Below are positions 12,460 to 29,497 of a stretch of DNA of 64,000 nt, piece by piece (within the stretch, counting starts at the first letter, position 1; the number at the start of each line of letters is the position of its first letter). The DNA lies in assembly GCF_003544915.1 (NCBI RefSeq), contig NZ_CP032097.1:2666001-2730000 (forward strand). Reading direction: 5' to 3'. Under the pieces are notes generated by a model. The model had not been told where the DNA came from and made no database searches. It saw only the letters and a program-made list of their open reading frames with translations. The stretch is from Arcobacter ellisii. Its GTDB lineage: Bacteria; Campylobacterota; Campylobacteria; Campylobacterales; Arcobacteraceae. Position numbers and translations under genes: made by a program.

Positions 12460-12499
12460 AAAAATTGAGAATATGTACATTAAAATTTGATAATGGGAG
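12441..12499 (+). repeat. Three tandem ~20-22 bp repeats, probable TnsB-binding sites (left end)
   Basis: Three related units with cores TGAGAAT (12446), TGAGAAT (12466) and TGATAAT (12488), each preceded by an A-run and the first two followed by ACATTA. Spacings are 20 and 22 bp. Tn7-family ends carry arrays of ~22-bp TnsB sites; the same core recurs at the right end. The third unit overlaps the ribosome site of the TnsE-like gene, so TnsB binding could affect its expression. Confidence 0.7.
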
Positions 12500-12510
12500 T
12501 TTAATCTAAC

Positions 12511-14217
12511 ATGGCAAAGAAGAAAAGTATCATTCCTGAATTTATGGTTAATAATCCAGATGATACTTTTCAATTTCTATTTCCCCTAAAAATTGTACTT
12601 GATGAAGATAAATTTGGTAATAGCCACTACGAAGTTGTTGTTAAAAATATGTCTAAAAATCAAATATTTACTTACAGAGTATCTCCCGAACTTTTATTTA
12701 CTCACTATCCTCTTTGTAAATCATTTAAAAATGGAGAAAAAACTGAAAAATATTTAAATAAAGATATTGTAGATAAAAGCTTTAAAATAAATACAAAATT
12801 TATTAATAAAAATAATGAAAAAAAACTAAAAGATATTCTAGATAAAGAAAGCATTGGAACTTTATCAGGATGGAGCTATAAATTTCTTAAAGATGTCAAA
12901 AATATTAATTGTTATTTAGTTGAGCAAGATGATATTAAAATAATCATCCCTCACTTTGCTATAGGAATATATTATTACTTTAGATTTTCACAATTAAGAG
13001 AAGCTGTTTTAGATTCTACTTTAAATGAATTATATATTATTTGTGATGATGATAGAACTAATGCAAAGATAGTTTTACCTACGTATAGAACAGATGAAGA
13101 TGCTGCTTTTATACATAGATATGCTTGTCAAAAGAGTGCAATTAAAGAGTTTGATAATGTAGTTAGATATATACACAATTATCTAAAATATATGCAAGAA
13201 AAGAATTATGATAGAGATTTATATAAAATGCATTTAAAATTTAATTTCCCAACAAAAGAAGAATTTCAAATTGACACTAGAAGTTCACTTGTTACAAATA
13301 AAAAAACAAATGAAAAATATTACTTTATTCATGAAATCACAAACGATTATTCAGATATAGGTTTTGAAAAACTAACAAAAATTATAGAAAAAAATAAACT
13401 TATTTTAAATTTGGGAGATATAGACAATCTTCCAAAAGTAGAAAAAGACATTCCAAATGAAACATCTGAAGTATTAAAAATAACACATGCAAGTAAAAGA
13501 AATACTCAAATATATCATCAAAAAGATAGAAAAAAAAGTTGTGGTAGTTTAAATGATATTCCAGTAGATGAAAAATCTTCAACTAGAGATATTATAAATG
13601 ATTTACTAAAAATTTTCAATGAACAGCAAACAGATGATATAACTGATCAAAGCTTAACAGAATCATCTTCTAAAGGAAATAGTACTATTAGAAAAGTTGT
13701 TATTTCAAGTGAGTTTGTAAAAGAATCTTCATCTAAACCTTTAACTGAAATAGATAATTTTGTAGTTTTCAATCAATATATAAACTTTCTACAAGAACGT
13801 CCTGACATAAAAGATTTTCATTTAAATGAGAAAAAAGATTTACCACAATATACACTTGAAGATAATAATGGTGAAGTAAAAATAAATCCAAAATGTAAAA
13901 TAAAAAAAAGACCTAGACAATACTTAACAGCAACATTTAAATATGAAAATTATTATGTTGGACTTTTAGAATTAGAAAACAATCCTTCTTCTGGAAATTC
14001 TACTTGGGTAATAATTTCTAATAAACCAATTGAAACTGAACATTTTGAATTTTTTATGAATCTATATTTTAAAGAAGATATAGGAATAGATAATATATTA
14101 AAAAAACATTCTAAAACTAATCCTAAATTTACTAAAAAGAATCATGAGAGAGATGAAAATTTAAATGAAATCCAGCTTGGGAAATGGTATGCTGGATTGT
14201 TAGGGAAAGTTAATTAG
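12511..14217 (+). CDS. TnsE-like transposition protein (tentative)
   Basis: A 568-residue protein with no standard catalytic motif. Against Tn7 TnsE as I remember it, the order of features agrees: an IPHFAIGIYYYFR segment near 150 followed by a helix with LREAVLDSTL; a mid-region W-less beta segment around LYKMHLKFNFP; a low-complexity Ser/Lys/Asp-rich linker (about 330-415); and a C-terminal beta/alpha domain with YYVGLLELENNPSSG and a closing LNEIQLGKWYAG. Length is close to Tn7 TnsE. It lies alone at the mnmG-proximal end, 84 bp inside the left tip and 5.6 kb from tniQ. TnsE in Tn7 directs insertion into replicating DNA through the sliding clamp. It has no zinc cysteines, so it is not a TniQ/TnsD. 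The assignment rests on pattern and context only. Confidence 0.55.
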   Translation: MAKKKSIIPEFMVNNPDDTFQFLFPLKIVLDEDKFGNSHYEVVVKNMSKNQIFTYRVSPELLFTHYPLCKSFKNGEKTEKYLNKDIVDKSFKINTKFINKNNEKKLKDILDKESIGTLSGWSYKFLKDVKNINCYLVEQDDIKIIIPHFAIGIYYYFRFSQLREAVLDSTLNELYIICDDDRTNAKIVLPTYRTDEDAAFIHRYACQKSAIKEFDNVVRYIHNYLKYMQEKNYDRDLYKMHLKFNFPTKEEFQIDTRSSLVTNKKTNEKYYFIHEITNDYSDIGFEKLTKIIEKNKLILNLGDIDNLPKVEKDIPNETSEVLKITHASKRNTQIYHQKDRKKSCGSLNDIPVDEKSSTRDIINDLLKIFNEQQTDDITDQSLTESSSKGNSTIRKVVISSEFVKESSSKPLTEIDNFVVFNQYINFLQERPDIKDFHLNEKKDLPQYTLEDNNGEVKINPKCKIKKRPRQYLTATFKYENYYVGLLELENNPSSGNSTWVIISNKPIETEHFEFFMNLYFKEDIGIDNILKKHSKTNPKFTKKNHERDENLNEIQLGKWYAGLLGKVN

Positions 14218-14511: not shown

Positions 14512-15102
14512 TTATATCTCTCCAAGTCTTTTTGTATACTTTCTATATGACAATAAAAGTTTATTTAAATTATCTTGAATTTTAGCTCTTACTTGTTCAT
14601 CGGAAATACTAACTGACAAAGATTCTAATTCACTTATATTTTGATCTAATTGTTCAATAAGCCAAATGATTTGATGTTGAGGCCTATGTAATTTTAAATT
14701 ATGAAACATCCATTTCCCTAAATTTGTTTTAAATTTAATAGAACCATCTTTTTTTCGCTCAAATTGTTTATCATATTCTTCATCACAAGGATCAATAAAA
14801 CCTTGAATTCCATCATGGGATAAACTTTCATTTAAGGTTGGCCATTTAGCTCTTTTTGAATTATTACAAGAACGACAAGCAAAAACTAAATTTTTATATT
14901 CCGTTGGATCTCTATGTGGGAATTTTTTTTGAGGAATAAAATGGTCTATTTCATACCACATTGTTCGCCAAGTATAGGAATCATCACAATATCCACATTT
15001 ATTATTAAAATCTTCCATTAAAAATGAAATATGCTGCTTATATGTCGAAACTATGGGAACATTATCTCTTCTTAATGGTTTCTTTTTTCTAAAAGGAATC
15101 AT
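14512..15102 (-). CDS. HNH endonuclease, last gene of the phosphorelay cargo operon
   Basis: A 196-residue HNH nuclease. Zinc knuckles C36xxC39 and C76xxC79 frame the catalytic EIDHFIP (Asp53-His54) and Asn71, with CNNSK after the second knuckle. This is the layout of McrA/PtuB-type HNH enzymes that cut DNA, or sometimes RNA. The C-terminal half is helical. Its ATG overlaps the stop of the response regulator gene (ATGA), so production is coupled to it. In context it is the likely effector, and also the only candidate restriction enzyme partner for the methyltransferase upstream. Confidence 0.85.
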   Translation of the reverse strand: MIPFRKKKPLRRDNVPIVSTYKQHISFLMEDFNNKCGYCDDSYTWRTMWYEIDHFIPQKKFPHRDPTEYKNLVFACRSCNNSKRAKWPTLNESLSHDGIQGFIDPCDEEYDKQFERKKDGSIKFKTNLGKWMFHNLKLHRPQHQIIWLIEQLDQNISELESLSVSISDEQVRAKIQDNLNKLLLSYRKYTKRLGEI

Positions 15103-15719
15103 TTTTTTAAACTCTCAATCATTTTTCTTGATTCTTCAAGTAAATCTACTAAAGTATGTAATTCTCCAGGTCTTGTTAAATATCCTTTTAAAGTTGGATC
15201 ATTTGGATAAATCTCATTTAAAAATTGATAAGCATTGAATAAATCTTCTTCTTCTTTTTCATTTAGTGATATTTCTAATTTTTTTTCAGATAACTCCTTT
15301 ACAATATCCTTATTTTTTCTAACTGCTGATTGGTAATTGTTAATTGTATTAAAAACTTTCATTTTAAAAATATCTATATATTCCTCAGATAATTCATCTT
15401 TACTTCGCAATAACATACCATCATCTACATGAGATACAGCATCTCTTTCATGAGAAGTTAAAATAGTTAATGGCAATTTTGGTAATAACTTTCTTACTTC
15501 TGTAGCAACCTTATTGCCATCAATTGAAGTGTTTCCATTTTCATCCAATTTAAAATCAATAATAAGCATATCTAAATTAGATAATAATACTTTTTGAGCT
15601 ATTTCTTCAGCAGAAATAGAATCATCAACTTCAAATATTTCTAAGATATAATCGTCAACAAACCAACCTCTAAAATTAATAATTGAACTCGTTTCATCAT
15701 CTACAAACCCTAATTTCAT
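15099..15719 (-). CDS. Receiver-only response regulator
   Basis: A 206-residue CheY-like receiver domain (1-120) plus a C-terminal helical, charged segment, with no DNA-binding domain. All phosphorylation residues are present: acidic pair Asp7/Asp8, phospho-acceptor Asp55 (LIIDFKL), Thr88/Ser89 (ILTS) and Lys107. So phosphotransfer from the kinase encoded 18 bp upstream is expected. With no output domain of its own, its C-terminal helices probably bind a partner; the translationally coupled HNH nuclease is the obvious one. Confidence 0.85.
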   Translation of the reverse strand: MKLGFVDDETSSIINFRGWFVDDYILEIFEVDDSISAEEIAQKVLLSNLDMLIIDFKLDENGNTSIDGNKVATEVRKLLPKLPLTILTSHERDAVSHVDDGMLLRSKDELSEEYIDIFKMKVFNTINNYQSAVRKNKDIVKELSEKKLEISLNEKEEEDLFNAYQFLNEIYPNDPTLKGYLTRPGELHTLVDLLEESRKMIESLKK

Positions 15720-15737: not shown

Positions 15738-18095
15738 CTAATTAAAACATTTGAATTTAAAAAATAATGCAAAACCACTATCTTTAGTTTCCAATATTTT
15801 TACAGCTGAGCCTTTATATTCACTTACAGTTATTTTCACTAGGTAAAGTCCTAATCCTGTACCAATTAAATTACCATTTTTATCAGTTCTTGAGGTTTCC
15901 AAAGCATTAAAAATTTTATCAGGATTATTAGAATACTCTTTCCCTAATCCAATACCATTATCTCTAAATATTATAATAATATCACTATCCTCTTTTATTA
16001 ATTCTATATTTATTTCTTTATTTTTAGTTTTTATTTGTTTTAATGCATTAATAGAGTTTGAAAGTAAATTATTAAATATAACATCTAAATCTACCTCAAA
16101 TGACTTTAATTCAAAAGATAAAGTTTCTTCTTTAGTTAATTTTATAGTTATACCTCTTTGAGTTAATGCTCTTGACCAATTTGAAATAAAAGAGTTAAAA
16201 TAGTTAACAAGATTAATATTTGTTCTCTTCCTTTTATCTTTTTGAAGAGTATTCAATGAATAATCAAGCCAATGTTTAAGTTTAATATCATCTTGTTCAT
16301 AACTATCTATCATAAAAAAAGGATTATCATATTTATTTAATTTACTTATAACATCATCTGAAATTAAGTTATGTAATGACCTTTTTAAATGTCTATGTCT
16401 AGGGACTATTCTCATTCTCAAATTATGTACTTCGTGAGCAAAAGAAGATATAATTAAACCTACACTTGCTAAGTTTCTTAACATACGTATTTCACTATCT
16501 TGTTCTTTTACTTTTAATTCATATGCTAAAGCAGCTTTTGCTAATGTTTCTTTGTCTTGAATATCAATATGATTATATTCTTTTTCTGTAATAGTAGAAG
16601 TTTTATTTCTTAATACTCTTTTAGCAGCATTTGTTGCCGAAGCCATTGCATTTATATCTGATTTACGTGATTTATCTAAGTTATATAAACTGTGCATAAT
16701 TATATTTCTATCTGTTTCAAAAATACTTATAATATCGATGATAGAATTCTTAAATAATTCAAATGTATTGTTTTCTTGTATTCCTTCTCGGCCCGATTTA
16801 TCTTCAAATTTAATATTAGTTAATCTTGAAATATTAATTACTCCTAAAACCTGTGTTGGTTTGACTTTATATCCACCTAATTTTTGTCCAACCCCCCAAG
16901 TATTACTTGCTTGTCTATGCCCTAAATTTAACCAATCATCACCATTCTCACCATATGGTCTAACACGAAAATTATCTCTAAAAATTTTTATACCGCCAAA
17001 CTTCTTTAAAAATTCTTTTCTTTCAGCTGATATAAAATCTTTATAAGGATATTTAACTAGAGAGGATTCATTTTCTTCCCCTTGTGTTATCTTAAAAAAG
17101 TAAAATACAAATGAAAACTCACCAATTTCTTTAGCTAATCTTTTTTCAACATTTTTAAAAGTTTTTAATTCACTAAAATTTATTGAATATATATCTTCTT
17201 CTTGTATGAATTTTTCTTTTGTTATGCCAGCTCTTTTCATAACTTCATCATTAAAAATCTCAGAATAGTCTGTTAATACCTTTTCTTTATTTAATTCATT
17301 TCTAATTAATGTAACTCTTAAACTATCTCCTTGAGTAGGAGAATATTCAACCTTTAATTTGTAATCATATCCCTCAATATTTGGATTCTTAACATTACCA
17401 AAATCTTGTAAAAATTTTGTAGAAAATAAATTTATATCAAATTCTGTTGATAATTCTTGAGGAGGCATGAGTACTTCTAAACTTTTATAAAGATTTTCTA
17501 ATTCATTAAAATCCCATATATCTTTTAGATTCTCAATTTTTAATATTGTTCCATTAACTAATTCTTCATCATTAATATTATTAAAAAAGCTAATTAACTC
17601 AGGTTTATTATGAAACATTCTATTGACTGTTACCTTTAAAGTATTATCTGAGCCAATTTCACGTATTCGTGCTTTTACATCATTAATTACAATATTTTCT
17701 TTATTAAAGTTATTCCATTGAACTTTCCAAATTAATGGTTTATTTGTTTTTTTTGAATAAGTATATACTGTACTATTTGTACCTAATCTATCCAAAGCAA
17801 AACGCCCTATGCCCTTTGCTCCTGTTTTGACTCTTCCTTCAGTGCTAGTATGGTCTTTTTGCTTTAAATTTGTTCCAATAGTCATCCATTCATTTTTTAT
17901 AACATCAAGTGTCATTCCAGAACCATTATCAATCATATAAAGTATATCATTATCAAATATAATAATACAAAAAGTAGCATCAGCATCATAAGAGTTTTTA
18001 ACGAGTTCTATTATAGCACCTTGAGCATTTGCAAAGTTTTCTTGACCAATAAGCTTTGCTGTTCTAGCAGAAACAGTAAAAGATAATGAAGGCAT
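15738..18095 (-). CDS. MORC/Hsp90-type GHKL ATPase fused to a histidine kinase
   Basis: A 785-residue soluble protein with two GHKL ATPase modules. The N-terminal module has ELVKNSYDADA (30-40), DNGSGM (56-61) and GAKGIGRFA (92-100), the HATPase_c_3 pattern of Hsp90/MutL/MORC proteins; a transducer-like region follows with FRDNFRVRPYG (about 372-382) and SGREGIQEN (434-442). The C-terminal module is a histidine kinase: H-box SFAHEVHNL with phospho-acceptor His554, N-box NNLLSNSINAL (675-685), G1 DNGIGLG (712-718) and G2 GTGLGLYLVK (745-754). No membrane segment or PAS domain is present, so the N-terminal ATPase probably is the sensor, perhaps clamping nucleic acid. It lies between the methyltransferase (40 bp) and the response regulator (18 bp). 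Confidence 0.87.
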   Translation of the reverse strand: MPSLSFTVSARTAKLIGQENFANAQGAIIELVKNSYDADATFCIIIFDNDILYMIDNGSGMTLDVIKNEWMTIGTNLKQKDHTSTEGRVKTGAKGIGRFALDRLGTNSTVYTYSKKTNKPLIWKVQWNNFNKENIVINDVKARIREIGSDNTLKVTVNRMFHNKPELISFFNNINDEELVNGTILKIENLKDIWDFNELENLYKSLEVLMPPQELSTEFDINLFSTKFLQDFGNVKNPNIEGYDYKLKVEYSPTQGDSLRVTLIRNELNKEKVLTDYSEIFNDEVMKRAGITKEKFIQEEDIYSINFSELKTFKNVEKRLAKEIGEFSFVFYFFKITQGEENESSLVKYPYKDFISAERKEFLKKFGGIKIFRDNFRVRPYGENGDDWLNLGHRQASNTWGVGQKLGGYKVKPTQVLGVINISRLTNIKFEDKSGREGIQENNTFELFKNSIIDIISIFETDRNIIMHSLYNLDKSRKSDINAMASATNAAKRVLRNKTSTITEKEYNHIDIQDKETLAKAALAYELKVKEQDSEIRMLRNLASVGLIISSFAHEVHNLRMRIVPRHRHLKRSLHNLISDDVISKLNKYDNPFFMIDSYEQDDIKLKHWLDYSLNTLQKDKRKRTNINLVNYFNSFISNWSRALTQRGITIKLTKEETLSFELKSFEVDLDVIFNNLLSNSINALKQIKTKNKEINIELIKEDSDIIIIFRDNGIGLGKEYSNNPDKIFNALETSRTDKNGNLIGTGLGLYLVKITVSEYKGSAVKILETKDSGFALFFKFKCFN

Positions 18096-18135: not shown

Positions 18136-19590
18136 TTATTTATTAAAAAATAATTCTTCTATAGAATAATCATTATTTTTTTTATTCATTATTTTTTCTC
18201 CAACTTTTTTTAATACTTCAATATTTGGCATTGGCAAGCTACAAATATCAGAAGCATTAATTTGTGTATGTCCACTAAATCTACGAACATATTTATCAAC
18301 AATTTCTAAATTTAAGTAAGCATTGAGTCCATAAATTAAATTCTCATCCAATCCACAACTATCCTTATGTATATAATTTAAATGGTTTTCTACTGTCATA
18401 TGAGTTCTATCAAAGTGTTCTTTCTTTAGAATACCAGTATTTATTCTCTTTTTATTTTCTTTATAACTCATACGTTTGATAATTATATAATTTCCTTTAG
18501 GAATCATTTTTTTCTTTGTTATCTCATTTTGTTTTAAAAAGGGTTTACTTGGATTATATACACTTAAATCAATTTCATCACTTCTTACATGTCGTTGATA
18601 AAGAATTCTTGCATTTTCAATGTAATCTTCTTCAGTTAAATATTCTTCTCTATACTCTACAACCTTTCCTGTTGAAATTGAAAGCCCTAATTCATTTAAA
18701 CTAGATGATAACTTTGAAATCTTATTTACTATTTCTAAATCATCAGTTTTTGATGGTATATGAATAAAACTATATGGATCATTTTTAAAAGTAATCTGAT
18801 CAAAATTAAATTTTTCGCAGCAATTATCATTTAATTTATCAGATATACATATTTTTGTTTTTTTTATTTTTTTCTTAGTTAATTTAATTATGACTACTTC
18901 TTGAAAAACTCCATATTCTTTAAAAACTTCTTTTCTAGATTCAAACAAATGAATAAACTCAATTTTTACATTTTTCAACATCTTTTTTCTAAATTTAGTA
19001 AATCTTGTTCCATTACAAAAACTTCTTGGAACAATAGCTACTAACTCACCTTTATCAGAAAGTAGTCTATAACATAATTCAATAAAATTACTATATGTAT
19101 TAGGAGTAGAAACATCTAATTTTTTTAGTATTTCTAATTGTTCATTATTCGTTTTTGAAATAAGACTATATGGAGGATTAATGATAATTCTATCAAAAGA
19201 AATCCCTTCTGTTAATAATTTTTGAGCTATGAAGTAAAAATCTTCATTATAAATTGAAGCGTGAAAATTTATATATTTATTTTGAATTTCTTGAATATTT
19301 CCTTTTAAATATTCAAGAAGATTTTTATCCCATTCAATAGAAGTTAAACTTACAAAAGAATTTTTCCCTGAATTTAAATATTTTAATGAACAGATAGCAC
19401 CTAAATTACCAACACCCGCACCCGCATCTAAAATTGATATATTTTCTTTCTCGAAATTAGAAAATAAGTTACTCATATAATTTGCTATGTCACTAGGTGT
19501 GAAATACTGTTCATATAACTTTTGCTTAGAAATTTCTACATCTTTTGTAGCTTGTATTCTATTATTTTCAATAATTTCAATAATATCCAT
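18136..19590 (-). CDS. N6-adenine DNA methyltransferase (Eco57I/gamma type)
   Basis: A 484-residue modification methylase. Seen in order: YFTP (29-32) before a helix, SAM motif I DAGAGVG (55-61), the acidic IEWD strand with Glu86, catalytic NPPY (138-141), and a C-terminal part with target-recognition character (STGKVVEYREEYL onwards, ending SDICSLPMPN). I start it at ATG 19590, which has AGGA 6 nt upstream; an earlier in-frame ATG at 19635 lies inside the operator repeats. It heads the operon with the GHKL-kinase, response regulator and HNH genes. It probably marks self DNA at a specific adenine site. No separate specificity subunit is seen. Confidence 0.87.
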   Translation of the reverse strand: MDIIEIIENNRIQATKDVEISKQKLYEQYFTPSDIANYMSNLFSNFEKENISILDAGAGVGNLGAICSLKYLNSGKNSFVSLTSIEWDKNLLEYLKGNIQEIQNKYINFHASIYNEDFYFIAQKLLTEGISFDRIIINPPYSLISKTNNEQLEILKKLDVSTPNTYSNFIELCYRLLSDKGELVAIVPRSFCNGTRFTKFRKKMLKNVKIEFIHLFESRKEVFKEYGVFQEVVIIKLTKKKIKKTKICISDKLNDNCCEKFNFDQITFKNDPYSFIHIPSKTDDLEIVNKISKLSSSLNELGLSISTGKVVEYREEYLTEEDYIENARILYQRHVRSDEIDLSVYNPSKPFLKQNEITKKKMIPKGNYIIIKRMSYKENKKRINTGILKKEHFDRTHMTVENHLNYIHKDSCGLDENLIYGLNAYLNLEIVDKYVRRFSGHTQINASDICSLPMPNIEVLKKVGEKIMNKKNNDYSIEELFFNK

Positions 19591-19604: not shown

Positions 19605-19660
19605 GTATTTTATAATATTTTACTATAAAATACATTATAATACAATTAAATACTGTAAAA
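19605..19660. promoter_or_regulatory. Phased operator between the methyltransferase and RHH genes
   Basis: AATAC occurs at 19629-19633, 19639-19643 and 19649-19653, exactly 10 bp apart, with TTTAC at 19619-19623 in the same phase. GTATTTTATA (19605-19614) and its exact complement (19624-19633) form a 10-bp inverted repeat with a 9-bp spacer. One-turn phasing is what ribbon-helix-helix repressors use. The site covers the promoters and leaders of both divergent genes. Confidence 0.65.
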
Positions 19661-19677
19661 AATTAAATGGATCTAAA

Positions 19678-19854
19678 ATGGGAAATAATAAAATTGGTCG
19701 ACCTACAAGCTCAAAAGATAAAAAAAAGAGCGCAAAAGTATTTGTAAATTTAACTGAAAAACAAAAATTAAATTTACAAATAATTTCAGAAAAAGAAGGG
19801 TTGTCTTTATCCCAATTATGTATAAAAGCATTGAAAAAAAGTGAATATATTTAA
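19678..19854 (+). CDS. Ribbon-helix-helix regulator (CopG/Arc-like), 58 aa
   Basis: A short gene starting ATG 19678 with GGAT upstream. The product has a basic arm (GRPTSSKDKKKSAK), then a beta strand KVFVNLT, helix KQKLNLQIISEKEG, a turn and helix LSQLCIKALKKS: the RHH fold, with alternating residues on the strand contacting DNA. It is divergent from the methyltransferase gene, with the phased repeats between them, and its stop overlaps the tniQ stop by 4 bp on the other strand. The likely role is repression of itself and of the methyltransferase operon, like a controller protein in restriction systems. Confidence 0.78.
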   Translation: MGNNKIGRPTSSKDKKKSAKVFVNLTEKQKLNLQIISEKEGLSLSQLCIKALKKSEYI

Positions 19855-21023
19855 CTATTAATAATTCTTTTATAAATATGTATAAATCCCTTATGAATAC
19901 TCGCATGACAACCAACAATTTCAGCAACATTTATAATATTTACTCGTACACCTATACTTTCTAAATATTTTATAGCTCCTAAAACTTCACTTTCATTTAT
20001 TTCTCTACCTATTTTATTTTCCATTGGAATATGCTTATCAATGATTTCTTTATACCAAAAAGTTATATCTTTAAATCCATGAATAAAATCTCTATGTGTT
20101 AATTTATTGTTACTAACAAATTTCAATAAATTATTTGGGAATTCTTCAAAAAGATAAAAAACTAAAGAAGTTAATAAGAACTCTTTCTGAATAGATAAGG
20201 CTTTTTTTGAATTATATTTTTCAAGTTTTTCACAAATAATTTTGTACTCTTCAATTAAAGGAAAGTCTACTAAATTTAATTCATTTTTTTTATCAACTAT
20301 ACTTCTCAAAGCTGTGAAACTTTCAAACACATAAAGTGAATTTATTTTTTCATCATCAATAATAAAATATCCATCATTCAGACCTTTTTCAAACCAACTA
20401 ATTGCTTTTAATCCATATTCAAAATTTGAATTTATTTTTATAACAAGATTTTCTCTAAAATCTTTCTCACACTTATGACATATACATATTTCTTTAAAAT
20501 GTTTTATTTTTGCAAAATTGATTTTTTCATAACATCTCCAACATCTATCAGTCAAAAAAACTTTATGTTTAGGACAGGCATTATAAAATTCATATCTCCA
20601 TTTTTTTCTAAAATATGGAATTTTATCTTCAGATAAACATTTTGGACAATACATCAAACCATTATGTGTTCTTTTATCAGTTAATTTTCTAATTTGCAAG
20701 GGTGGATACAAACACTCATTACAAGAGAATAAGTATCCCTCTTCACTTCGTAAAGACATTTTAAAAATATCTTCTATTTTTAGATTACTTTTACTGGCTA
20801 AATTTTCTAAAAACTTTTCATCAAATATAAAATCTAAATCCCTTCTTGAAACTTGATTTCCTTCTTTTTTTACAAAAAGAGTTAAAAAAATTGGAAGCTG
20901 TCTTCTGTGTTCAATAGCAACTCTAGTAAGCCAAGAACTTAAAAGTTCATCTTCTAAAGGTTGTGGAATTATTAAAAAGAAATAGTCTTGAACCCAAGCA
21001 TTATTTCTTTTTTTCTTTGCCAT
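19851..21023 (-). CDS. tniQ: TniQ/TnsD-family target-selection protein
   Basis: A 390-residue TniQ protein that selects the insertion site. The N-terminal hallmark QPLEDELLSSWLTRVA is at 21-36. Zinc-binding cysteines follow: C101xxC104, C126xxC129, C150/H153, C161xxC164 and C182xxC185. The C-terminal part is helical. It ends the tnsABC-tniQ operon, 1 bp after tnsC. Since the element sits in the last codons of mnmG, this protein is the best candidate for recognising the mnmG 3' end, as TnsD recognises glmS for Tn7. Its length is between TniQ of Tn5053 and Tn7 TnsD. Confidence 0.88.
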   Translation of the reverse strand: MAKKKRNNAWVQDYFFLIIPQPLEDELLSSWLTRVAIEHRRQLPIFLTLFVKKEGNQVSRRDLDFIFDEKFLENLASKSNLKIEDIFKMSLRSEEGYLFSCNECLYPPLQIRKLTDKRTHNGLMYCPKCLSEDKIPYFRKKWRYEFYNACPKHKVFLTDRCWRCYEKINFAKIKHFKEICICHKCEKDFRENLVIKINSNFEYGLKAISWFEKGLNDGYFIIDDEKINSLYVFESFTALRSIVDKKNELNLVDFPLIEEYKIICEKLEKYNSKKALSIQKEFLLTSLVFYLFEEFPNNLLKFVSNNKLTHRDFIHGFKDITFWYKEIIDKHIPMENKIGREINESEVLGAIKYLESIGVRVNIINVAEIVGCHASIHKGFIHIYKRIINS

Positions 21024-21024
21024 G

Positions 21025-21894
21025 TTACAACTTTGGTAAATACTCTATATCATCAACTGTGATATATTCTCTTTTAGATTTAATTGCTTTTATAGCTGCT
21101 TTTTTTAATAAATTTACAGTCTTACCAATCAGCCCTTCAGATTGATAAAATAAAGCATTTAATAATTCAGTATTATCAGCCATGTTTGAAGCTTTTTTGA
21201 GAGGTAAACATTTTTCATAAGTTGCCACAAATGACCTAAATTTTCTATCATTATTCCATCTAGGAAGTTCAAGTGCTGGAAATCTTGTACTTGTTTCATT
21301 TCCTATTGATAAAGCAGAATATGCTTCTCTTGTACCTGCTAAAACAATTGTTAGAGATAAACTATTGCTTAACTGTTTTAAATCATCTATAAAAGTTCTT
21401 TGTTTATTTAGATTTCCTCTTAATGAACTATGTATTTCATCAATTAAAATCATTCTCGTACCAAGTTTATTCAAAAAATGTTTTGCAAGATTTGCTTTAA
21501 TAGCAACTTTTTCTATTCTATTTTGAGGTACACATAACTCATCTAAAATAAGACTATACAATCTACTTTCATCTGGAATAGTTGGTGCTTGAAAATATAT
21601 TATAGGTATTTCATAAATTGCTTCACCATCTTTTGTGACATAATCAAGTTTTGTTTTATGTAGCTCATACATTCTTTTTAGAATAGCTGTTTTTCCATTA
21701 TTTGAATCTCCATAAATAAGTAGCCCTTCATGTCTCATTTGAGGTGGGTCTAAAAATTTATCTTCTAAAATCTCTACTAATTTTGCAGCTGAACCATATC
21801 CAATCCAATGGTCTTTTTTACAATATATAATTCTTTCTTCATCACTTTTACTTAAATATTCAAAAGCTTCAGGTATTAAATTTCTTTCATTCAT
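21025..21894 (-). CDS. tnsC: Transposition AAA+ ATPase TnsC/TniB
   Basis: A 289-residue AAA+ regulator that polymerises on target DNA and links TniQ to the TnsAB transposase. Walker A GDSNNGKT is at 62-69 and Walker B ILIDEIH at 149-155 (Asp152, Glu153); a sensor segment LAGTREAYSAL follows. It is much shorter than Tn7 TnsC (about 555 residues) and resembles TniB of Tn5053/Tn552-like elements. It starts 3 bp after tnsB. Confidence 0.92.
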   Translation of the reverse strand: MNERNLIPEAFEYLSKSDEERIIYCKKDHWIGYGSAAKLVEILEDKFLDPPQMRHEGLLIYGDSNNGKTAILKRMYELHKTKLDYVTKDGEAIYEIPIIYFQAPTIPDESRLYSLILDELCVPQNRIEKVAIKANLAKHFLNKLGTRMILIDEIHSSLRGNLNKQRTFIDDLKQLSNSLSLTIVLAGTREAYSALSIGNETSTRFPALELPRWNNDRKFRSFVATYEKCLPLKKASNMADNTELLNALFYQSEGLIGKTVNLLKKAAIKAIKSKREYITVDDIEYLPKL

Positions 21895-21897
21895 AAA

Positions 21898-23784
21898 TTA
21901 GCCTATTGGATAGATTTCATAATCACTATCATCGTCTTCATTAAATTGTTTTTCTAAATTTAATTTAGATTCAGATTTAGGAGTGACATCTAATACTTTT
22001 GATTCATATTCCATTGTTTTCTCTTGATGTTTTTTTGTACTTTTTTGTCTTCTAACAGACTTAGTTTCTTTTTTAGCATCTAAAATATATTGATTTAATC
22101 TTTCATGTGCTTCAAAAATATCATGAGGTTCAAGTTCCCTTCCTGTAATAGCTTTTTTTGCTTCACTTATAGATCTTCTTAGTTCTGTTAAATCCATAGC
22201 TGGTCTTCTTATATCTGCATATGGTACTATTATATAATCTTTAATATCTTCATCATAAACATAGATTTTACTAATATCTCTTGGATCTCTTCTACACTCT
22301 ACTTCATTTATTAAATCAGGTTTTAATTTTTTATATTGAGTTGGAATTATATATTTTCTAAGAGTTTCGGAAAAATAAGTAATGTAATCAATAGTTATCC
22401 CATTTTTTTGAACACTTCTTTTTATTTTTGGTAGTAATGACATTCTAAATTTTATAGTATCAGCAGGTACTATTGGTAAAAATGGTATTTCTTTTTCATC
22501 TCCAACTCCAAGTAAACCTTGATAAAATTTTTCTTCAGGTGTCATTCCCAAAGAACTATGTACGGTTTTATGATATACATTTACTATAAAATCAACATAC
22601 CACTTCTCTAATTCAGAAACTGTTACAGCTGCTTTTTTACCAGACTTATATTTCCCTCTTTCAAATATATTTGAAAAAGTACTTCCTGGTAATTGATGTG
22701 TTTTTTTCATAAAAGTACCGATAACACGCTCGACTGCACCACCAAATTCAGGCCTTGCAACTGGACGATAGATATCCTCAATAGCAAATTCACTACAAAA
22801 GCTATGTAAACTTATCGACCTAAAGTCTTTTCCATTATCCATATGGATTTTACGTGGAAGCCCATAAACTGGCCATTCTCCTTTTACACCATGTTGATTC
22901 AAGAAATCATCCTTTGGTAATACTGCATTTAAAAAACATTGACCTACACTAAAATAGCTTGGAGCATTTAACGAAATGTAAAATCCATAAATCATTCTAC
23001 TATACATATCAATAGCAACAGTAATAAATGGTCTTCCTATTTCTTCTCTTGTTTCTTCATCAACTAAAATTACATCAACTTTAGTATGATCTATTTGTAT
23101 AATATCTAAAGGCAATTTTACTTCAGGGAATTTTCCAGGCATTCCTCTGGTTTCTCTTACACTAAGATTTTTTCTATGTTTTGCAATTAATTTAGGATTA
23201 ATGTTATTAAGCCGATTTCTTATAGCTCCTTTTTTAGGAATTTGAACATTAAATTTTTTACATTCATTAACAATGACATTGTAAATATTTGAAAATGGTA
23301 ATTGCTGCTCATCTAAATATACTTCATTAATTATTGTATTTATAATTTCCTCTGTTTCTTGAGGAAATCTAGATTTTCCTTTACCTCCACAATTTTCTCT
23401 ATTTCCAGCTAGGGAACTAACTGTTCCATATTTCTCAAAAGTTTCAATCCATCTATAAAGAGTTGCCATACTTTTTTTAAATTTTTTAGCTCGTTTTTCT
23501 ACATCTTTAGCTGTTCTATTCTCCATTTCAAGTAAAGGTTTAATTATTTCGTACTTTTCTTTTGCTTTATCTAGAGCTTTATCTCCATATTCTACTTGTG
23601 ATTTTTCAGGTTCATTTGAATTTTTAGAATTTTTTATTAAATCATTTACTTTTACAATTATTTCTTCATAGGGACTAATAGTCTGTTTTAATAAAACTTT
23701 ATCAGCAGAAGGATAACTTTTTATAATATATTCATTATCTTCATAAAATATTTTTGAGTTTATATTAAATTTAATTACTCCCAT
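21898..23784 (-). CDS. tnsB: Transposase TnsB (DDE, rve family)
   Basis: The 3'-strand transposase. It is 628 residues: an N-terminal region with helix-turn-helix domains (DVEKRAKKFKKSMATLYRWI near 94-113), a DDE core with Asp232 (QIDHT), Asp316 (HMDNG) and Glu352 (FGGAVERV), then a Mu-transposase-like beta barrel and a basic C-terminal tail (about 510-628) that in the family contacts TnsC. It should bind the TGAGAAT repeats at the element ends. It overlaps the tnsA gene by 14 bp. Confidence 0.95.
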   Translation of the reverse strand: MGVIKFNINSKIFYEDNEYIIKSYPSADKVLLKQTISPYEEIIVKVNDLIKNSKNSNEPEKSQVEYGDKALDKAKEKYEIIKPLLEMENRTAKDVEKRAKKFKKSMATLYRWIETFEKYGTVSSLAGNRENCGGKGKSRFPQETEEIINTIINEVYLDEQQLPFSNIYNVIVNECKKFNVQIPKKGAIRNRLNNINPKLIAKHRKNLSVRETRGMPGKFPEVKLPLDIIQIDHTKVDVILVDEETREEIGRPFITVAIDMYSRMIYGFYISLNAPSYFSVGQCFLNAVLPKDDFLNQHGVKGEWPVYGLPRKIHMDNGKDFRSISLHSFCSEFAIEDIYRPVARPEFGGAVERVIGTFMKKTHQLPGSTFSNIFERGKYKSGKKAAVTVSELEKWYVDFIVNVYHKTVHSSLGMTPEEKFYQGLLGVGDEKEIPFLPIVPADTIKFRMSLLPKIKRSVQKNGITIDYITYFSETLRKYIIPTQYKKLKPDLINEVECRRDPRDISKIYVYDEDIKDYIIVPYADIRRPAMDLTELRRSISEAKKAITGRELEPHDIFEAHERLNQYILDAKKETKSVRRQKSTKKHQEKTMEYESKVLDVTPKSESKLNLEKQFNEDDDSDYEIYPIG

Positions 23785-24442
23785 TATTTATCTCCACAAA
23801 AGATTTCATTGTGACTTTCTCATTTTCTAAATCAGTTTTTAAAATATTTTGAGCCACAAGTTTCCAGATATTATTCGAAACTCTTTGATACTCACTTTGA
23901 GATTTCATAATTAAATTTGCAAGTTCAAGTGCTGATATTTTTTTATCTTTTAAGACATCTAATATAATATCATCATACTTATCTTCAGATGGATGAAGAA
24001 TAAATCTATATAGAAAATCAATATTTGATATATAAATTTCATTAAAATCAAGTTCAGTTAAAAATTTAAAATCTACACCTATTTCATCACATCTTATTTT
24101 TGCAGCATTAAATTTCTTTTCATATGTATCTTTAAATTTTTCAAATTCACTTAGGTATTTAACTTCGATAAGTGCATCTTTTAGATTTGATTTTTTATAT
24201 CTTCTAACGAAGCAATCTACATCATACTTTTGTGGTTTAGCATTTTTAATTATCATTATTCTAGGTTGTTCTTGGTAAGTTTCTACAGTATCATCAAATT
24301 CTAAATAAAGAAAAAGTGTCTTTTCAAGTGAAGAGTCAAACCCAATAGATCTATTATTTTTAACACTTGGGAAATGTCCTGTTACGGAACGATAGCTTTT
24401 TTTAATTTGTCTTTGTCCAAAAGTTATTGCATCATCATACAT
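23771..24442 (-). CDS. tnsA: Transposase endonuclease subunit TnsA
   Basis: Restriction-endonuclease-fold nuclease that cuts the 5' strands, making transposition cut-and-paste. The 223-residue protein shows the catalytic set: Glu40 (FDSSLEKTLF), Asp76 (KYDVDCFV) and the ExK of IEVKY (Glu93, Lys95). A C-terminal winged-helix region follows. It is the first gene of the tns operon. Unlike Tn7, it is 5 kb from the nearest transposon end, with cargo in between. Confidence 0.92.
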   Translation of the reverse strand: MYDDAITFGQRQIKKSYRSVTGHFPSVKNNRSIGFDSSLEKTLFLYLEFDDTVETYQEQPRIMIIKNAKPQKYDVDCFVRRYKKSNLKDALIEVKYLSEFEKFKDTYEKKFNAAKIRCDEIGVDFKFLTELDFNEIYISNIDFLYRFILHPSEDKYDDIILDVLKDKKISALELANLIMKSQSEYQRVSNNIWKLVAQNILKTDLENEKVTMKSFVEINNGSN

Positions 24443-24604: not shown

Positions 24605-26182
24605 ATGGCACTTTCATTAAATGCAGAACAAAAAGAAATTACAAAAATATTAAGCGGTAAAGAACAATATGTTATTCCACCTTATCAAAGAGCATATTCA
24701 TGGGAAGAAGAGCAATGTGAAGCTTTATGGGAAGATTTAAAAAATGCCTATTTAACGAATAAAGATGAAGGTTATTTTTTAGGGAATATAGTAATCGCAA
24801 AAAGTAGAGAAGAAAAAAATAGATTAGAAGTTATAGATGGTCAACAAAGATTAATTTCTATTACCTTACTTATAAAAGTATTACTTCATTTTAATCCTGA
24901 TAGCACCTATTTAAAAGAAGCAATTTACATATCTGGTAAAAAATCAAATGATATTCCAGAAACAAGATTAAAAACAAATGTATTTGAGGAAAAAGATTCT
25001 TTATTTCTTAAAAATGTTATAGAAACTCCATTAGATAAAATCTATGAATTTGATGATACAAAGGACAATAATTTTAAAAAAAATATATTATATTTTTATT
25101 CAGAAATTACAAAATTTTCAAAAGCAAACAATATAGAAGATTTTTCAGATTTCTTATTAGATAATGTATCCCTATTACCAATAGAATCAGAAGACACTAA
25201 TCAAGATAATGCTAGAGAAAAAGCATTGAAAATCTTTGAAACAATTAATAATAGAGGTAAAGATCTTTCAAATTCAGATATATTTAAAGCGAATTTATAC
25301 GCTATGGCATTAAATAATTTAGAGCAAGATGAATTTATTAATAGATGGAAAAGACTTGATAGTGATTGTGATAATATTGGTTATGATGTAGAGAGAATTT
25401 TTAAAATCTATTCATATCAAATAAGAGGTCAACGAGGAATAAAAAGTTCAGAAATAGGATTAAGAGATTTTTTTAAAAAAACTGAATATACCCCATTTAA
25501 ATATAAAAAATATAATGAAATTATGGATGACTTATTTAGTATAGTTAAAGCAGTCGAATTTTTCAATACAACTAAAAGAACTGAAGGATTAAATGAACTG
25601 CCAAAATGGTTCCAATTAATTGATATTTATACAAATAACTATCCAAAAGATTTAATGATTGTTTATCTTGCACATAAAATAAATACAGATAATTTTGTTA
25701 ATGATACTATACGTTTTTCTAAAAGTCTTGTAAGGTATTGTTACTTTCAAGGAGCAACTACAAATATTAAACAATATATTTATGATTTAACTATAAAAGT
25801 TATTCATAATGAATGGGAAGAATATTATCCTAGTAATTTAAATGATAGAAGTTATAAATATTTGGGTAGGTTATATAAAGGATTTGGTCTATTGGGGTCA
25901 TATTTAAATCCTAACCAGAAATCTGTTTATCCATATAATTTAAAAAGGATGAGAGATATTGTTAATTTTTGGAATGAAGATTATTGGAATTTTGACACTA
26001 TAGGTAATATTATAGCAACAGATTTAACACCTAAAGAAATACTAGATAGTGATAAAACATCTAAATTTGAAGATATTAATGAGTTAAGACATAATTTTAA
26101 TGATTGGAATATTAATAATCACATAGAACGTCAAGAAATATTAAAAAATAGATTTATTGAATTTTTTAAAGAATCAAAATGA
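24605..26182 (+). CDS. DUF262 (GmrS/ParB-like) domain protein
   Basis: A 525-residue protein with the DUF262 signature: IPPYQRAYSW at 24-33, VIDGQQRL at 76-83, and FETINNRGKDLSNSDIFKANL in the middle. DUF262 has a ParB-like nucleotidase fold found in GmrSD modification-dependent restriction and in BREX-associated BrxU, where it hydrolyses NTP. The DUF1524 HNH domain of GmrD is not visible here, so the nuclease part would have to come from elsewhere. It overlaps the next ATPase gene by 4 nt, implying one functional unit. Probable mobile defence cargo. Confidence 0.75.
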   Translation: MALSLNAEQKEITKILSGKEQYVIPPYQRAYSWEEEQCEALWEDLKNAYLTNKDEGYFLGNIVIAKSREEKNRLEVIDGQQRLISITLLIKVLLHFNPDSTYLKEAIYISGKKSNDIPETRLKTNVFEEKDSLFLKNVIETPLDKIYEFDDTKDNNFKKNILYFYSEITKFSKANNIEDFSDFLLDNVSLLPIESEDTNQDNAREKALKIFETINNRGKDLSNSDIFKANLYAMALNNLEQDEFINRWKRLDSDCDNIGYDVERIFKIYSYQIRGQRGIKSSEIGLRDFFKKTEYTPFKYKKYNEIMDDLFSIVKAVEFFNTTKRTEGLNELPKWFQLIDIYTNNYPKDLMIVYLAHKINTDNFVNDTIRFSKSLVRYCYFQGATTNIKQYIYDLTIKVIHNEWEEYYPSNLNDRSYKYLGRLYKGFGLLGSYLNPNQKSVYPYNLKRMRDIVNFWNEDYWNFDTIGNIIATDLTPKEILDSDKTSKFEDINELRHNFNDWNINNHIERQEILKNRFIEFFKESK

Positions 26183-27747
26183 AAATTAAAAAAATAATAA
26201 TAGAAAATTTTAAATTTCATCATCATTTAGAATTTGAAATTAGAAACAATAACAATTGCTTAATCTATGGTGAAAATGGTTCTGGTAAAAGTTCAATTTA
26301 TGAAGCATTATACTCAAATTTCTATTATTACAAAAATAAAAAAATAGCTAATGGAATAATTAAGATTAGAGATACTTTTTTACATAGAGATTTTCCATCA
26401 GGAAATTTTAAAGTAAACATTTTATTTAATAATTCAATTAATTTTAATAGAACAGATGAAACTTTAAGTAATGACACTCTTTTATTGGAACCAGAAAGTA
26501 ATCCTGAACAAGGTAAAGCAAATGTTTATTTTGCAAATGAAAAAGTATTACGAAATATAACTGATGACAATTTTTTCAATATTATTGAAAATGAATTGAT
26601 AATACATTTTCCAGAATTATCTAAAGTTATCTCTTGCTATAAAGATGTAAATAAGTCTTTAAGTTTATTAAAAGATGCCGAGCAAATTAATGAAGAAATT
26701 ATAAAACAAAGACAAGAAGCAGATGAGCTTTGTAAGACTAAATTAAACGAATTAATTCCTTTTACTTTAATTAATAGTATTTTAGAGAATAATTTATTAT
26801 GTGACTTTAAAATTGAATATTCTTTTAAAGAATCAAATATAGACATAAATAAAAAATTTCATTCACCTCTTATAAATTTTAAGATTATGAATATTGATGA
26901 TAGAGGAGATTTCAGAAATCATTTTAATGAGGCAAAATTAAAACTAATTTCTATTGCAGTTTATTTTGCACTTGTAAAAAAGAACCAAACACAAAATGAA
27001 TTAAAACTTTTAATACTTGATGATTTTCTTACTAGTTTAGATATGGCAAATAGAAAAAAGATTGCACGTTTTATTATTGATGATTTTGAAGAATATCAAA
27101 TTATTATTTTAACTCATAATATACAATTTAATAATTTATTAAAAAAGATGATTAACCCTACACGTTGGGATACAAAAATTTTATTTACAATGAAAGAAGA
27201 TGATTTAATTGTTGCAAAAGTAAAAGATAAAAATGATAATTATATTGAAGAAGCAAAAAATTTTATAAATACTCCTAATTATGATTTAGCAATTGCAGGT
27301 AACTTATTACGAAAAGCATTTGAAGGTATTGTAAATGAATTTGAACAACTATTAGAAATTGGAAAAGTGGAAAGATTGCAAAAAGTATTGGAAGCGCTAG
27401 AGAATGACGATTCTTATTTTTATGATACTCCACATGAAGTATTAGAAACATTGATTAAAGATTTTGAAAATATGTTTCAAAATACTCAACAACCCGATGA
27501 TGCAAAAATCCGCCAAATCAAAAATAAAATAAATGCTATTAAAAATAATAAAATTACATTCAAAATAGAAGATGGTACTGAGAAAAGTTACCACTTATTG
27601 AAAAGAACCGAATTTTATAAAAATATTTTAATGAACCCTAGTTCACATAATGATTCAGAGACAGAAATCTATAAAGAAGAATGTGAAAATACAATTTTTT
27701 TGTTAGAAGAATTGAATAAATTATTAGAAAAGTTAAAAGAAAATTAA
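26179..27747 (+). CDS. SMC/RecF-like AAA ATPase paired with DUF262
   Basis: A 522-residue ABC-class ATPase. Walker A GENGSGKSS is at 31-39, the signature-like NEAKLKLISIA at about 250-260, Walker B LLILDD at 278-282 followed by a D-loop SLD, and the H-loop ILTHN near 313. The intervening coil is short (about 155-190), unlike true SMC or Rad50. The C-terminal 180 residues are helical and unassigned. Translation is coupled to the DUF262 gene. Such overcoming-lysogenization-like ATPases are common in defence pairs; the exact system is not one I can name. Confidence 0.72.
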   Translation: MKIKKIIIENFKFHHHLEFEIRNNNNCLIYGENGSGKSSIYEALYSNFYYYKNKKIANGIIKIRDTFLHRDFPSGNFKVNILFNNSINFNRTDETLSNDTLLLEPESNPEQGKANVYFANEKVLRNITDDNFFNIIENELIIHFPELSKVISCYKDVNKSLSLLKDAEQINEEIIKQRQEADELCKTKLNELIPFTLINSILENNLLCDFKIEYSFKESNIDINKKFHSPLINFKIMNIDDRGDFRNHFNEAKLKLISIAVYFALVKKNQTQNELKLLILDDFLTSLDMANRKKIARFIIDDFEEYQIIILTHNIQFNNLLKKMINPTRWDTKILFTMKEDDLIVAKVKDKNDNYIEEAKNFINTPNYDLAIAGNLLRKAFEGIVNEFEQLLEIGKVERLQKVLEALENDDSYFYDTPHEVLETLIKDFENMFQNTQQPDDAKIRQIKNKINAIKNNKITFKIEDGTEKSYHLLKRTEFYKNILMNPSSHNDSETEIYKEECENTIFLLEELNKLLEKLKEN

Positions 27748-29242: not shown

Positions 29243-29497
29243 TTATTAAATACCTTTATTTCAATAGAGACAGACAATTCTATCAATACTTAATTTAATA
29301 ATGAATATTTTCTAATTTTATTACCTGTACTTTATATAAAATTCTCTGCTAACTTAGGATAAATCATATTATCATTTTTTAGTATACATATTAATATAGA
29401 AAATTTAACTTATTATATCGTACAATAACAATATATAATCGCAATAAAAGGCAAACTTAATATGAAAATACATTCTCAAATTTTAATGAATATGACA
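29243..29497. other. Right-end region of the transposon
   Basis: About 255 bp without a gene. It carries the promoter side of the PIN-like gene (AAAGG ribosome site) and inverted copies of the TnsB-type motif: TGAGAAT (minus strand, 29472-29478) and CTAAAAAATGATAAT (minus strand, 29368-29382). The second copy matches the left-end unit CTAAAAAATGAGAAT at all but one base. Confidence 0.65.
29465..29497 (-). repeat. Right terminal inverted repeat
   Basis: Read from 29497 inward it begins TGTCATATTCATTAAAA and holds TGAGAATG at offset 20-27, matching the left end at 24 of 33 positions. Confidence 0.88.

Follow-up and report, generated by a model that had tools for sequence, protein, structure and literature searches.

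The locus lies in a Tn7-like element within the window, that is, the whole 64-kb stretch of DNA that was analysed, which has a GC content of 28%. The transposition genes form a core on the minus strand (19851-24442) consisting of TniQ (19851-21023), TnsC/TniB (21025-21894), TnsB (21898-23784) and TnsA (23771-24442). Beyond TniQ, a short gene of the ribbon-helix-helix (RHH) family (P0001, 58 amino acids, 19678-19854) is found on the plus strand, and divergent from it on the minus strand is a predicted four-gene operon. Its first gene (18136-19590) encodes an N6-adenine-type methyltransferase (MTase) matching the Eco57I family and its second (15738-18095) a GHKL ATPase with HATPase_c_3 at the N-terminus and HATPase_c at the C-terminus. 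The third gene (15099-15719) encodes a receiver-like protein whose Response_reg match (E = 1.6e-4) falls under the gathering score, and the fourth (14512-15102) a PtuB-like, HNH endonuclease-like protein. About 40 bp lie between the first two genes and 18 bp between the next two, and the last pair overlaps by 4 bp; since all share one strand with small gaps, a single promoter could drive expression from the MTase to the HNH gene, and the two look co-transcribed. The MTase probably starts at 19590 rather than at the first in-frame ATG at 19635: AGGA lies upstream of the former, and a start at the latter would read through part of the repeat array discussed below.

With TnsA, TnsB, TnsC/TniB and TniQ nearby and related elements in existence, the RHH gene and the operon qualify as Tn7-like cargo. 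A TnsB match occurs in 24 of 104 family genomes, and 18-kb stretches from 13 of these 24 (L054-L066) were read as related elements. The gene beyond TniQ varies between elements, and in the window this place is taken by the RHH gene and the four-gene operon. A role for the RHH gene in the transposon core was considered and rejected, as the RHH profile gave a single match at E = 0.26 (with E up to 1 allowed) among 1066 open reading frames (ORFs) in the 18-kb stretches of the 13 elements.

Several other features of the element were recorded in passing. The plus strand encodes, at 12511-14217, a protein of 568 amino acids for which Pfam gave no match at E of 1. Relatives of it are present on the mnmG side in 11 of the 13 elements (25-29% identity in L064 and L065) and adjoin mnmG in nine of the 13, which are all the stretches showing mnmG; it is a candidate element-core gene. 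A 23-nt inverted repeat (12473-12495 and 29471-29493, 87% complementary) possibly lies near the ends of the element. Beyond TnsA, a second cargo pair on the plus strand (24605-27747) comprises a protein matching HEC-06/Orf5 and an ATPase with weak matches to several defence ATPases. Lastly, the RHH coding sequence contains on the plus strand a 19-nt inverted repeat with one mismatch and a 14-nt loop (19735-19786). No second hairpin of this type (loops of 3-25 nt) occurs in the window, any such hairpin arose in one of 20 Markov simulations, and the RNA fold of 19648-19854 has a z-score of -2.29, with four of 200 shuffles as good. Because T-rich DNA follows the hairpin on the minus strand, it is a putative terminator that might end tniQ transcripts. 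No Rfam match reached the gathering score between 19400 and 20000.

The 58-residue protein and its relatives

The earlier note proposed that a 58-residue RHH regulator had been overlooked at this position, and the gene is indeed a member of that family. Against a profile of eight relatives built without the window protein, the ORF scores E = 2e-14, while the runner-up among 315 window ORFs scores 0.17; by sequence, it is a diverged member of these RHH relatives. Similarity places it in the MetJ/Arc/CopG (RHH) superfamily. When the family profile (window protein included) was compared by sequence with the PDB, HP0222 (1.7e-5), 2k1o and CopG (0.0066) were retrieved; for the 58-residue sequence alone, the sole match was a designed repeat protein. 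Pfam returns for it only a sub-threshold NikA-like match (16.7 bits against a threshold of 27), three relatives that were scanned likewise fall under threshold, and among PHROGs the protein matches a transcriptional repressor (E = 1.7e-4) and an Arc-like family (0.076). No Pfam helix-turn-helix (HTH) domain was matched up to E of 1.

Single-sequence searches found weak relatives: with its own genome counted, they matched three of 104 family genomes at E of 0.001 and six of 397 genomes in a phylum sample at 1e-4. A profile search extended the latter to 87 of 397 genomes at 1e-3, of which loci L163-L191 alone were read. When the family was searched with a protein of class I (the classes are defined below), 18 of 200 genomes matched and 20 loci were read, and a plasmid search with the window protein gave one record. 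No relatives were found in phages and viral contigs, and none above 44% identity turned up in the family, phylum, plasmid, phage or viral-contig searches.

The relatives share a distinctive neighbor. At 40 of 45 distinct places (57 rows, found with a profile that includes the window protein), a Walker-A ParA-like gene of 186-245 amino acids lies directly upstream of the RHH relative. Three of the five remaining places are at contig edges (L158/L167, L170 and L179), while L160 and L175 have room upstream and yet no ParA-like gene. In alignments, the ParA-linked relatives carry an extension before a GRPK motif. The window protein has neither feature: it lacks the N-terminal extension, no ParA lies directly upstream, and two relatives' ParA proteins used as queries found no homologue in the window at E of 0.01. 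As a separate observation, the class I RHH gene of L160 (3285-3536, plus strand) has no ParA-like neighbor and sits, by eye, beside an integrase-like gene; it is possibly another stand-alone member.

Phased sites and candidate promoter signals in the divergent gap

The gap between the RHH gene and the MTase holds AATAC at 19629, 19639 and 19649, TTTAC in the same phase at 19619, and GTATT at 19605. The four phased sites form a plus-strand array (19619-19653) with 10-bp spacing, a candidate operator, and a 10-bp inverted repeat (19605-19633) has arms GTATTTTATA/TATAAAATAC at 19605-19614 and 19624-19633 with a 9-bp spacer. The positions given in the earlier note for AATAC and TTTAC are exact, and its claim of a phased array in the divergent promoter gap is borne out beyond chance. 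On the plus strand of the window, no 5-mer with a G or C other than AATAC forms a triple at a period of exactly 10 bp; at other periods, TTGAA recurs at 6 and AAAAG at 9. Under a first-order Markov null for the 85-bp gap (20,000 simulations), such a triple has a probability of 0.00035 at period 10 and 0.00195 at any period from 7 to 11. The full chain of four WWTAC sites at 10-bp spacing, a pattern taken after the fact from the earlier reader's description, arose in none of 20,000 simulated gaps, occurs once in the window with both strands counted, and is absent from 461,837 bp of other, in part mutually overlapping, loci. The inverted repeat is weak by itself (P = 0.028, with 48 overlapping matches of the same kind in the window).

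Related motifs recur at the promoters of the relatives. After the upstream regions had been printed, six loci were chosen for the likeness of their beta-strand to that of the window protein. The 90-bp regions upstream of these six, counted without the window, contain 11 copies of AATAC/GTATT where 2.97 would be expected (P = 0.0007, present in 6/6), which makes it the top 5-mer aside from a Shine-Dalgarno word. The L156 relative has the same overall identity (35%), a different beta-strand and no AATAC/GTATT upstream; with it included, the count is 11 against 3.47 (P = 0.0006). Among 21 other, more distant loci, AATAC occurs 14 times against 8.7 expected (P = 0.052). Loci fetched after the idea had formed gave 10 against 2.76 in five class I regions (P = 0.0006) and 7 against 3.17 in six class II regions (P = 0.04). 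Across 122 control upstream regions, which were not made unique, AATAC/GTATT averages 0.48 with a maximum of 3; none reaches the four of the window, and none has two AATAC in 9-11-bp phase.

Two classes of site can be distinguished among the relatives. Class I, that of the 217-aa ParA and near relatives, has AGTAT/ATACT, and class II has ACTGT/ACAGT. Successive class I spacings are 5 (two), 6 (four), 11 (three), 16 (two), 17 (five) and 22, 27 and 43 (one each), which is helical only in part. Class II half-sites are spaced at 10 (nine), 20 (one), 21 (six), 30 (one) and 42 (six), near multiples of the helical turn, and the six later class II loci alone give 10 (four), 21 (four), 30 (one) and 42 (three). 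Such sites are present in 11 of 12 class II regions. Conservation of the repeats at homologous loci, which the earlier note had put forward as a check, therefore mostly stands: among relatives no closer than 44% identity, related motifs are mostly kept and often similarly phased, with L169 having no ACTGT/ACAGT and the plasmid row L162 a single AGTAT/ATACT. As the relatives keep related motifs, the outcome that would have counted against the earlier note, a retained gene with lost repeats, is largely not what is seen.

The window also shares a longer word with class II. The 11-mer AAATACTGTAA (19648-19658, plus strand) is an exact match to promoters of class II ParA-RHH relatives and has no other exact copy in the window. 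Allowing one mismatch gives eight matches in the window where 5.1 are expected, so by frequency alone the word is not unusual. Exact copies are found in 17 of 211 loci, namely two copies of the window, eleven class II rows that stand for nine distinct genomes (the L201 copy lies at the very start of its locus), and four others (L040, L054, L062 and L123).

Motif models trained without the window give a similar picture. Sites of at least 4 bits were counted, including both strands of near-palindromic motifs, and control regions resembling one another or the operators were removed. The class II model finds six sites in the gap, a number reached by one of 122 controls, and the class I model finds nine, reached by none; from another seed, the class I model finds six, reached by four controls. 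Two joint models find eight (two of 122 controls) and ten (none). The best single gap site is less distinctive, being equalled or exceeded in two controls for class II, eight for class I, and five and six for the joint models, and across the 64 kb the best class II site of the gap ranks fourth while no gap site enters the class I top six. Two regions were dropped from the training sets as too similar, L193 from class I (leaving 11 of 12) and L209 from class II (leaving 12 of 13). Also omitted were L170 and L201, for want of upstream sequence, and four duplicates of the same places (L200 of L174, L206 of L172, L208 of L168 and L211 of L199). Mean ungapped identity of the upstream regions is 0.61 in class II and 0.53 in class I, and four and six regions, respectively, are left under 60% identity; this partial homology inside each class makes for a small effective number.

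Candidate promoter signals overlap the array. A candidate -10 element of the RHH gene, TATAAT (19636-19641, plus strand), lies inside it, and the palindrome ATTATAAT overlaps this element and reads on the opposite strand too. As in the ParA-linked family, phased half-sites in the window appear to cover the gene's own predicted promoter. A generic promoter and terminator scan gave no signal above shuffles. In C. jejuni, according to PMC3847290, sigma-70 promoters are devoid of a -35 box, and a periodic pattern marks positions -7, -17, -27 and -38. For an assumed start at 19648, T is found at all four of these positions; 20 starts were tried, and 19648 and 19658 fit all four, which means that part of the phasing could be promoter.

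This leads to the main rival reading, in which the phasing is nothing more than A/T periodicity of a Campylobacterota sigma-70 promoter and the RHH protein, if it acts, does so at other places. The match of the window's T's to the C. jejuni period speaks for it. It accounts for the T's and leaves the repeated AC unexplained, and it sits poorly with controls that have no two phased AATAC, with other loci that have no WWTAC chain, and with a motif common to relatives of the same RHH protein. It is considered unlikely, though the likeliest of the rivals. Promoter periodicity and an operator can both be true together: the AC after each T, its absence in controls and its recurrence in relatives point to an operator laid over a promoter.

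Probable control of the cargo operon

The best account of the locus, to which a probability of roughly 60% is given, makes the 58-residue protein, a relative of the ParA-linked RHH family, an autorepressor: its array would cover a divergent double promoter, and it would repress both itself and the operon. RHH dimers would line up next to each other on the same helical face, following the 10-bp-phased WWTAC sites within 19605-19659, and would cover promoters in both directions. Binding, cooperativity and control of the cargo operon, as put forward in the earlier note, are plausible. The RHH gene and the MTase-GHKL-receiver-HNH operon would then be repressed together. Upon entry into a new cell, where the repressor would not yet have built up, the operon may be briefly on before settling at a low level. 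The level of confidence reflects added exceptions that were offset by replication in later loci.

To place this regulator in context, relatives of the operon were examined. A single-sequence MTase scan of genome contigs gave no match, and the MTase relatives of the family, L007 and L008 (three of 104 genomes with the window's own), pair an MTase with a 316-amino acid protein; this different layout led to their rejection as copies of the cassette. From a GHKL-alignment scan, 80 of 264 relatives of the GHKL gene were kept, and 84 cassette loci were examined in all, with L070 uncounted as the same place as L052. The order GHKL, a protein of about 200 amino acids and HNH is found in 80 of the 84. 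Directly after HNH is a recognised MTase in 25 loci, whereas 46 have there an ORF of 400 amino acids or more that was not recognised; in L067 and L069 this ORF is annotated as an N-6 DNA methylase. An MTase ahead of GHKL, as in the window, is recognised in one locus (L115), and only in L115 (E = 7e-69) and L131 (E = 2e-89) does the MTase clearly belong to the same subfamily as that of the window.

A small XRE/HTH gene lies just upstream of GHKL in 23 of the 84 cassettes, 81 of which have a flank of 300 bp or more, and this makes local regulators a common feature of the cassette family. Such XRE-type regulators stand at the operon head in, for example, L072, L076, L105, L125, L132 and L136, and all five that were scanned match HTH_26. 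In place of these, the RHH gene may take the local-regulator role in the window, in the opposite orientation. Conservation of an RHH gene with the cassette was rejected: upstream of the 84 cassettes, no convincing RHH gene was found among 410 small ORFs, and the lone match, at E = 0.097, is a different small protein in L052. In comparison with the 18-kb stretches of the 13 related elements and the upstream regions of the 84 related cassettes, the window is alone in pairing this RHH gene with this operon.

Three further explanations fare worse than promoter periodicity. RHH folds are common in antitoxins, and the ORF is short; it might therefore be an antitoxin remnant or remain untranslated. 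This is improbable given its strong match to the family profile and its neighbors, an MTase and TniQ, with no small toxin-like gene noticed between.

Slightly less probable still, and not supported here, is the timing role suggested by the earlier note, in which the protein would act like a C protein and have the MTase appear ahead of the nuclease. C proteins resemble the present case in being small regulators that adjoin an MTase and have sites near their own promoter. They are HTH activators and repressors, needed for endonuclease expression and able to delay it, and their RHH analogues Omega and PaaR are described in the same source as strictly repressors (PMC3874152). The window regulator is RHH-type by profile rather than HTH. 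The leading place of the MTase in the operon and the frequency of XRE/HTH genes just upstream of GHKL in related cassettes both fit a timer; against it, the genes share a strand with no large gap ahead of GHKL, receiver or HNH, and the MTase-GHKL gap has no AATAC/GTATT and no ACTGTA/TACAGT. Co-repression would be the simplest outcome, and the usual place of a recognised MTase in the cassettes is after HNH rather than before GHKL.

Weakest of all is a centromere- or oriT-like array serving an accessory partition or mobilisation protein, which the ParA-linked relatives and the weak NikA-like match would favor and which the lack of any window homologue of two relatives' ParA proteins, the missing extension and the placement of the array between two divergent starts argue against.

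Within the autorepressor reading, a more speculative extension, regarded as about as improbable as the timer, is that a partition-family RHH protein without ParA and tail was recruited as a defence repressor and has retained a site code resembling that of plasmid ParA-RHH promoters, which might allow plasmid sensing. If true, an incoming plasmid with such sites could titrate the repressor and turn the defence operon on, while the plasmid's own RHH protein could turn it off.

Comparison with known systems

The regulation of mobile restriction and defence cassettes is little known. Among the paper titles listed, none describes an RHH regulator of a restriction or defence system, which is not proof of absence. 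Restriction-linked neighborhoods of GHKL, receiver and HNH genes have already been described, among them the paraMORC and HEF_HK-Response_reg_2 cassettes (PMC8011034, PMC2292703). The window resembles these in having a GHKL ATPase that combines HATPase_c_3 with a kinase-like part and lies close to genes for receiver-like, HNH and MTase proteins, and differs in that its proteins give no HEF_HK or Response_reg_2 match at E up to 1. With HTH genes heading 23 of 84 related operons and an outward-facing RHH gene here, the comparison suggests that regulators are exchanged as modules.

ParG is a type of ParA-linked RHH protein. The sequence family of the window protein resembles this Omega/ParG type in that the RHH gene follows ParA, while the window protein itself stands apart in having neither ParA nor extension. 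Omega of pSM19035 is an RHH protein whose targets are promoter-overlapping arrays of repeats; a single repeat is bound weakly and a pair strongly (PMC9499535). An array over predicted promoters is likewise found in the window, where binding is putative. Compared by description, the window sites have 10-bp spacing as opposed to the contiguous 7-bp repeats of Omega. Through the shared site code, partition proteins of plasmids might be connected with the control of defence.

By analogy, the nearest functional precedent is RptR, the repressor of an island with a type I restriction-modification system and DarTG2, whose three direct repeats overlap the -10 element (PMC12255303). Like RptR, the window protein would be a small local repressor of a defence operon. 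RptR, a four-helix protein that binds TAGCTA, is encoded at the head of its own operon (PMC12255303), whereas the window regulator is an RHH protein encoded by a divergent gene with another site.
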